Assembly: GCA_017469685.1 (NCBI GenBank)
Contig: JAFUFW010000016.1
Span: 1 to 64,000 of the forward strand
From: Bacteroidaceae bacterium
GTDB taxonomy: Bacteria; Bacteroidota; Bacteroidia; Bacteroidales; Bacteroidaceae
Direction: 5' to 3'
Length of the DNA stretch: 64,000 nt
Shown here piece by piece: positions 20,139 through 23,374 of this stretch. The position numbers and the translations under genes are program-made. The notes below the pieces were generated by a model. That model was not told the DNA's origin. It searched no databases and was given only the letters and a program-made list of their open reading frames with translations. How positions within the stretch are numbered: the first letter of the stretch is position 1; each line of letters starts with the position of its first letter.

Positions 20139-22256
20139 ATGGCAAAAAAAGATTTGCATCTGACCCGCAATATCGGCATCATGGCTCACATCGATGCCGG
20201 TAAGACAACTACGTCTGAACGTATACTCTTCTACACGGGTCTGACACATAAGATCGGTGAGGTACACGACGGTGCCGCCACTATGGACTGGATGGCTCAG
20301 GAGCAGGAGCGCGGCATCACTATCACCTCCGCTGCCACAACAACGTTCTGGAACTGGAACGACCATAAGTACAAAATAAACCTGATTGACACTCCGGGAC
20401 ACGTGGACTTCACTGCCGAGGTGGAGCGTTCGCTGCGAGTGCTCGATGGTGCTGTGGCTGCTTACTGCGCTGTTGGCGGCGTAGAACCCCAGTCGGAGAC
20501 TGTCTGGCGTCAGGCTGACAAGTACAACGTGCCCCGCATAGGCTATGTCAATAAGATGGACCGCAGCGGAGCCGACTTCTTTGAGGTCGTGCGTCAGATG
20601 AAGGATGTGCTGGGCGCCAAGGCTGTGCCCGTTGTCATCCCCATCGGCGCGGAAGAGAACTTCAAGGGCGTTGTCGACCTCATCAAAATGAAAGCTATCC
20701 TCTGGCACGACGAAACAATGGGTGCCGAGTACAGCGTTGAAGAGATTCCTGCCAACCTCGTCAGCGAGGCTCAGGAGTGGCGCGACAAAATGCTCGAGGC
20801 TGTGGCTGAGTATGATGAGGCTCTCATGGAGAAGTTCTTCGACGACCCCGCCAGCATTACAGAAGAAGAGATTCTCGCTGCCCTGCGCGCCGCTACAGTC
20901 AGCATGGAAATTACCCCAATGCTCTGCGGCTCATCGTTCAAGAATAAGGGCGTGCAGACCCTTCTCGATTACGTCTGCGCTTTCCTGCCCAGCCCGCTGG
21001 ACACGCCCAACGTCGTAGGTACAAACCCCGACAGCGGCGAAGAGGAGGACAGACGTCCCGACGAGGACGAGAAGACCAGCGCTCTGGCCTTCAAGATCGC
21101 CACTGACCCGTATGTCGGTCGTCTGACCTTCATCCGCGTCTACTCTGGTAAGGTGGAGGCTGGCAGCTATATCTACAACACCCGCTCCGGTAAGAAAGAG
21201 CGCGTAAGCCGTCTCTTCCAGATGCACAGCAACCATCAGAATCCCGTCGAGGTCATCGGCGCTGGCGATATCGGTGCAGGCGTTGGCTTCAAGGATATCC
21301 GCACGGGCGACACACTCTGCGACGAAGATGCACCCATCGTGCTCGAGTCGATGGAGTTCCCCGATCCCGTTATCGGTATCGCCGTGGAGCCCAAGACGCA
21401 GAAGGATCTCGACAAGCTCTCGAACGGCCTGGCCAAGCTGGCTGAGGAGGATCCTACGTTCACCGTCCGCACCGACGAGCAGAGCGGCCAGACGATCATC
21501 AGCGGTATGGGCGAGCTCCATCTCGACATCATCATAGACCGTCTGAAGCGCGAGTTCTAGGTTGAGTGCAACCAGGGTAAACCTCAGGTCAACTACAAGG
21601 AGGCCATCACCAAGACTGTCAACCTCCGCGAGGTTTACAAAAAGCAGTCAGGTGGTCGCGGTAAGTTTGCTGACATTATCGTCAACGTAGGCCCTGTCGA
21701 TGCCGACTTCGAGGGTACCGGACTTCAGTTCGTTAACCTCGTCACCGGTGGTAATATCCCCAAGGAGTTCATCCCCTCGGTGCAGAAGGGCTTCGAGAGC
21801 GCCATGAAGAACGGCGTGCTCGGCGGCTTCCCGATGGACAGCTTGAAGGTAGAACTCCTCGACGGCTCATTCCACCCCGTAGACTCCGACCAACTCTCGT
21901 TCGAGATTGCAGCCATTCAGGCATACCGCAACGCTTGCGCTCAGGCCAAGCCCGTGCTGATGGAGCCCATCATGAAGCTCGAGGTGGTAACGCCCGAGGA
22001 GAATATGGGTGACGTCATTGGCGACCTCAATAAGCGCCGCGGACAGGTAGAGGGCATGGATACCAGCCGCAGCGGTGCCCGCATCGTGAAGGCCATGGTG
22101 CCCCTGGGCGAGATGTTCGGCTACGTGACAGCACTGCGTACTATCACTTCAGGTCGCGCAACCTCCAGCATGACCTATGATCATCATGCCCCCGTATCCT
22201 CCAGCATCGCCAAGGCTGTACTCGAAGAGTGCCGTGGACGTGTTGACCTGGTCTAA
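20139..22256 (+). CDS. fusA: Elongation factor G, interrupted by an in-frame TAG at codon 474
   Basis: The full frame (20139-22256) codes for 705 residues, the normal EF-G length, except for a single TAG at 21558-21560. Upstream: the G1 loop A-H-I-D-A-G-K-T-T, the R-G-I-T-I-T-S-A-A effector segment, D-T-P-G-H-V-D-F and N-K-M-D. Downstream: [16 protein letters not shown] through domains IV and V to the end. The affected residue is Lys or Asn in other EF-Gs (R-E-F-K-V-E...), so AAG to TAG is a one-base change. If TAG is read as stop, the 473-residue product ends late in domain III and lacks the tRNA-mimicking domain IV, so it could not translocate. No frame damage is seen after the TAG. Sequencing error, recent mutation, or suppression are the options. 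Confidence 0.9.
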
Positions 22257-22397: not shown

Positions 22398-22703
22398 ATG
22401 AGTCAGAAAATCAGAATCAAACTGAAGTCCTACGACCACAACCTCGTAGACAAGTCAGCCGAGAAAATCGTGAAGACTGTCAAGGCTACCGGCGCAATCG
22501 TGAGCGGCCCGATACCCCTCCCCACCCACAAGCGCATCTTCACCGTCAATCGTTCAACCTTCGTCAACAAGAAGGCACGCGAGCAGTTCCAGCTCTGCAA
22601 CTACAAGCGCCTCATCGACATTTACTCGAGCACCGCTCAGACCGTCGATGCACTGATGAAGCTCGAACTACCCAGCGGCGTAGAGGTTGAGATCAAGGTA
22701 TAG
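22398..22703 (+). CDS. rpsJ: 30S ribosomal protein S10
   Basis: The product is 101 residues, normal for S10, with [14 protein letters not shown] and [10 protein letters not shown]. It is part of the 30S head and of the antitermination complex with NusB. It leads the S10 segment and is separated from fusA by 141 nt with a strong hairpin. The stop codon is TAG, which shows that TAG is a normal stop in this genome. Confidence 0.98.
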
Positions 22704-22759
22704 TGAAAAAGTCTAGAACATCTAGAAATATAAACAAATTTTTTAATTTAATTACTGAA

Positions 22760-23374
22760 ATGCCAGGATTATTAGGAAAGAAAATCGGAATGACTTCCAT
22801 TTTCAGTGCCGACGGTAATAATGTACCGTGCACTGTTATCGAATTAGGTCCTTGCGTAGTTACCCAAATCAAGAGCGTTGAGAAGGACGGCTATGCAGCC
22901 GTACAGCTCGGTTTCGAGGAGGCTAAGGAGAAGAATACCACCAAGCCTTTGCTCGGACACTTCGCTAAGAGCGGTACAACACCCAAGCGCCACTTGGCCG
23001 AGTTCACAGGTTTTGAAGAAGTGAATTTGGGAGACACCATCACGGTGGATCTCTTCGCTGACACTGCTTTTGTCGACGTGATTGCCACGAGCAAAGGTAA
23101 GGGCTTCCAGGGCGTCGTGAAACGCCATGGCTTCGGTGGCGTAGGCCAGAGCACCCACGGTCAGGACGACCGTCTGCGTAAACCAGGTTCCATCGGAGCA
23201 TGCTCCTACCCCGCAAAGGTCTTCAAGGGCCTGCGCATGGGCGGTCAGATGGGTAATGTACGCGTTACTACGCACAACCTGCAAGTGTTAAAGGTGATTC
23301 CCGAGCATAACCTGCTCCTCATCAAGGGCAGCATACCGGGTTTCAAAGGTTCAATCGTAAGCGTTATTAAGTAA
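22760..23374 (+). CDS. rplC: 50S ribosomal protein L3
   Basis: The product is 204 residues from the ATG at 22760 ([12 protein letters not shown]). A longer reading from 22703 adds 19 unrelated residues and was rejected because L3 proteins begin at this point. The long loop [20 protein letters not shown] reaches towards the peptidyl-transferase centre. One nucleotide separates it from rplD. Confidence 0.97.

Follow-up and report, generated by a model that had tools for sequence, protein, structure and literature searches.

A single in-frame TAG in fusA of a Bacteroidaceae draft genome is most likely an artefact or a rare allele

The canonical EF-G is encoded by fusA and described by the NCBIfam model TIGR00484, and a second type, EF-G2 (fusA2), occurs in Bacteroides. 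According to the accessible part of PMC6989115, fusA of B. thetaiotaomicron is essential under all conditions although fusA2 is present, fusA2 is required for gut colonization and otherwise dispensable, and EF-G2 is proposed to compensate for low EF-G in Bacteroides. Code 15 crAss-like phages, in which TAG is reassigned, are described in the accessible part of PMC9523058. Here we analysed a stretch of 64,000 nucleotides (the window; bases 1-64000 of a 76,193-base contig) from a draft genome of 94 contigs (87.03% complete, 0.72% contamination) that appears to be a metagenome assembly. The fusA gene of the window resembles the canonical gene in domain set and in gene order (rpsL-rpsG-fusA-rpsJ-rplC, with fusA between rpsG and rpsJ) but differs from it by an in-frame TAG at codon 474, which was seen in none of the anchored relatives. 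A divergent paralog elsewhere in the genome, which we take to be of the EF-G2 type, is distinct from the TAG-bearing fusA and scores below the EF-G cut-off. With the code 15 phages the locus shares an in-frame TAG and a Bacteroidales setting, whereas the TAG studied here lies in a host gene, at one site, in a genome that uses TAG as a normal terminator and whose assembled part yielded no suppressor tRNA. The locus is also like fusA, gyrA and dnaK in three other draft genomes of the genus (G024, G073 and G051, respectively), each carrying a single stop flanked by gene sequence; the stop is TAA in those three and TAG in the window. The fusA TAG most likely arose in sequencing or assembly, or else is a rare allele, and is unlikely to represent new biology.

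An earlier note on this DNA, made from the sequence alone, had described one stop in a 706-codon EF-G frame with conserved EF-G sequence on either side. Translation of the frame confirmed that the TAG is its only internal stop (Table 1), and a profile search reading through the stop scored the gene at 1028.8 bits against TIGR00484 (curated cut-off 659.4), with the one TAG inside the match. The conservation was likewise borne out, as the residues upstream of the TAG matched the Pfam domains GTP_EFTU, domain 2 and EFG_III (67 of 75 profile positions) and those downstream matched EFG_IV and EFG_C. The full EF-G domain set is hence present, split over two pieces by the TAG, which falls close to the end of domain III with the domain III/IV junction nearby. 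It maps between residues 477 and 479 of the solved EF-G chain 2rdo_7 and between residues 470 and 472 of chain 1fnm_A, which we take to be the E. coli and T. thermophilus proteins, respectively.

Table 1. Positions in the window of fusA, its in-frame stop and the two pieces that the stop delimits.
Feature	Positions	Strand	Basis
fusA (canonical EF-G), 706 codons including terminal TAA	20139-22256	+	TIGR00484 profile and gene order
Single in-frame TAG, codon 474, context TTC TAG GTT	21558-21560	+	Frame translation
Upstream fusA piece, 473 residues: G domain, domain II, most of domain III	20139-21557	+	Pfam
Downstream fusA piece, 231 residues: domains IV and V	21561-22253	+	Pfam

We compared 110 fusA relatives, of which 104 could be anchored at codon 474 and six loci were left out as not anchorable. 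All 104 anchored relatives carry a sense codon and none a stop at the site (101 Lys, 2 Asn and 1 Gly), which agrees with the statement in the earlier note that Lys or Asn is usual there and supplies the comparison with close relatives for which it had called; a tblastn count gave 102 Lys, 3 Asn and 1 Gly in 106 of the 110. Identity of the window fusA to the 20 closest relatives compared is 93.6-96.6%, and at columns invariant in 20 relatives of more than 93% identity it has one private amino-acid change upstream of the TAG and none downstream. Against its eight closest relatives it shows 6-12 amino-acid differences over the 231 downstream residues and 11-20 over the 473 upstream residues. The ratio of the downstream to the upstream difference rate, calculated by hand, is about 1.4 for the window fusA (8 pairs) and about 1.5 among the relatives (7 pairs). 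These ratios, together with the private changes, suggest that the half of the gene past the TAG is under no relaxed constraint and has undergone no clear decay. Silent changes separate even the nearest relative widely from the window fusA (149 of the 473 codons upstream), too widely to date the TAG change. The best 11 of 80 listed EF-G relatives are metagenome or bin records from Prevotellaceae, Bacteroidaceae and other Bacteroidales. A family-wide search matched fusA in 328 of 399 genomes and revealed no stop among the matches listed, a weak control as these all score at least 1029.3 bits and the window's own match 1028.8. In the genus search the top score belongs to the best fusA match of one congener, G006 (L042, contig C52); since it could not be anchored at the codon 474 site, it is of another type, and its contig is perhaps foreign to that genome.

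The TAG might be real and decoded as an amino acid, either through a suppressor tRNA of the cell, a phage or a mobile element or through near-cognate readthrough, so that some full-length EF-G is made. An essential translation factor would then rely on stop-codon readthrough. The apparent lack of clear decay in the downstream half would fit such decoding, as would the TAG reassignment published for crAss-like phages (PMC9523058), and the assembly lacks about 13% of the genome. Against such decoding, RF1 is present, with a profile score over cut-off and an open frame, and the genome routinely uses TAG to end genes. TAG ends 31 of 179 long frames (at least 300 codons, in a 471-kb sample) and 10 of 58 window ORFs that were picked as likely genes from 137 listed, with the upstream fusA piece included in both counts. 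The earlier note had considered TAG an ordinary terminator and its global recoding unlikely, naming several genes that end in it, and these data support both statements. Among the genes named, rpsJ, map, radC, luxS and ddl passed the NCBIfam cut-off, the lpxH match fell below cut-off, and the DUF1573 ORF had no NCBIfam match at 1e-10. Global recoding was therefore rejected, and the signs of TAG reassignment, namely TAG within several genes, its avoidance as terminator and loss of RF1, were not found. Furthermore, no CUA anticodon occurs among the 45 tRNAs typed with ARAGORN in the assembled part of the genome (87% complete), comprising all 44 Rfam tRNA matches and one tRNA-Pro reported by ARAGORN alone, so the suppressor tRNA offered as an option by the note did not materialize there. 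No same-species DNA was found in viral contigs. The RNA past the TAG shows no unusual degree of structure (z -1.37; 17 of 200 shuffles as stable or more), and structure-driven readthrough was rejected on this ground; in addition, only one gene was judged to be affected in 471 kb. Given RF1, ordinary termination at TAG and no CUA anticodon found, there is little sign of readthrough at the fusA TAG, and we regard its decoding as very improbable. The narrower version, a fixed real TAG translated by a suppressor tRNA that is encoded outside the assembled 87% of the genome or supplied by a TAG-reassigning phage, has next to no likelihood in our judgement; if it were true with a suppressor borne by a phage or a mobile element, the viability of the host would depend on that mobile element.

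How often lone stops arise in such assemblies bears directly on an artefactual origin. Within the genome itself, a scan of 471,305 bases for genes interrupted in the same frame gave 32 candidates including fusA, which alone was judged by eye to have its stop within a gene; on visual inspection, the remaining 31 looked like tandem genes or shadow ORFs. As no further mid-gene stop was seen in these 471 kb by that judgement, the assembly is not visibly error-ridden, which speaks against an artefact. A syntenic comparison of ORFs in stretches from five congeners with the 76-kb contig covered 39,459 of its 76,193 bases, shadow matches included. Of the many stop flags that it raised, all but the one in fusA were put down by eye to weak matches, to shadow ORFs on the antisense strand or to an upstream extension ahead of rpsL. 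The window genome's rpoB and rpoC are without stops, its dnaK is partial and without a stop, and gyrA gave no match at the threshold used.

Across the genus, five core genes were searched in 139 congeneric genomes, and the genomes over cut-off numbered 95 for fusA with two in-frame stops (the window TAG and the TAA in G024), 100 for rpoB and 103 for rpoC with none, 119 for gyrA with one (TAA in G073, L203) and 82 for dnaK with one (TAA in G051, L204). Of the 499 genome-gene pairs that pass cut-off, 4 thus have a lone stop when the window TAG is counted, and outside fusA 2 of 404 do. This equals about 9e-6 per codon (about nine per million codons) when model lengths are taken as exposure and partial copies are counted whole, or about one lone stop in a core set assumed to comprise 300 genes with 400 codons each. 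If the five-gene rate holds elsewhere, a single lone stop is background, expected about once per draft genome of the genus, an argument which presumes that the stops in the sister genomes are errors too. The lone TAA of G024 is at fusA codon 32 (L084; contig C20, 17000-21000), and the TAA in dnaK of G051 presumably could not have arisen by a single base change from a codon for the residue expected at that position. To our knowledge, not all bacteria strictly require dnaK. It is unlikely that G024, G073, G051 and the window strain each truly lost a different core gene. Moreover, rpoB lies in two neighbouring pieces in G108 and G065, as does rpoC in G095 and G087 and, with gaps, also in G004, G005 and G008; the two-piece copies may be frame errors.

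It is therefore very probable that the fusA TAG is not fixed in a living lineage, an error or a rare dead allele being the best account because RF1 is present, TAG use is ordinary, no suppressor was found in the assembled part and the sequence past the TAG shows no clear decay. In a draft genome apparently derived from a metagenome, the TAG would go back to an error of base calling, consensus or assembly or, alternatively, to a rare dead allele picked by the assembler out of a mixed population. The organism would make an ordinary full-length EF-G and TAG would serve as terminator only, read by RF1; the reads or the majority of the population should then carry a sense codon at codon 474. Sequence or assembly error, one of the options in the earlier note, became the best supported of them, since core genes of sister genomes carry lone stops as well. 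Both observations expected of an artefact were made, namely that the lesion is missing from relatives (no stop at the site in the 104 of 110 that were anchored) and that similar lesions are present in other core genes of comparable assemblies. Against an artefact, two of the four stops fall in fusA, a weak excess that is not significant (Fisher p = 0.17). The case is useful as a caution: with 4 of 499 pairs affected in five core genes, one lone stop in a draft assembly from this genus carries little weight as evidence for biology.

The TAG might also be real and have inactivated fusA only very recently, with another EF-G taking over translocation. In the assembled 87% of the genome EF-G domain IV was found in only two genes, the window fusA and a divergent paralog, and no second canonical EF-G scored over cut-off. 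The paralog lies at the edge of contig C35, where 684 codons are open and the main part scores 340.5 bits, below the EF-G cut-off, and a C-terminal piece of an EF-G paralog lies at the start of contig C37. We tentatively assign the paralog to the fusA2 type, from its low EF-G score and general knowledge rather than from a fusA2 model. This gene is broken by a contig end (L085 at the C35 start and L086 at the C37 start of the window's genome, G000), and its pieces overlap in profile coordinates. Hence the part of the earlier note's option that foresaw another EF-G-like gene was right, but the gene is of the divergent fusA2 type only. Its presence and the suggested compensation of low EF-G by EF-G2 in Bacteroides favour a null mutation, while the score under the EF-G cut-off and the essentiality of fusA in B. 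thetaiotaomicron under all conditions despite fusA2 argue against one (both Bacteroides statements from the accessible part of PMC6989115). Because of that essentiality, rescue of fusA by the paralog would be unlikely in this organism as well, and we give a recent null mutation only a slim chance compared with an error or a rare dead allele. Finally, EF-G made as two separate, cooperating polypeptides would suit a break near the domain III/IV junction but is extremely unlikely, as the first in-frame ATG, GTG or TTG past the TAG does not come until 73 codons later (GTG at 21780), within domain IV, and no anchored relative has a stop at the site.

Downstream of fusA, the initial GTG of the listed rplC frame overlaps the rpsJ stop (window 22698-22770). 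Since the L3 profile matches from residue 22 only, the true start of rplC is probably further downstream than this GTG.
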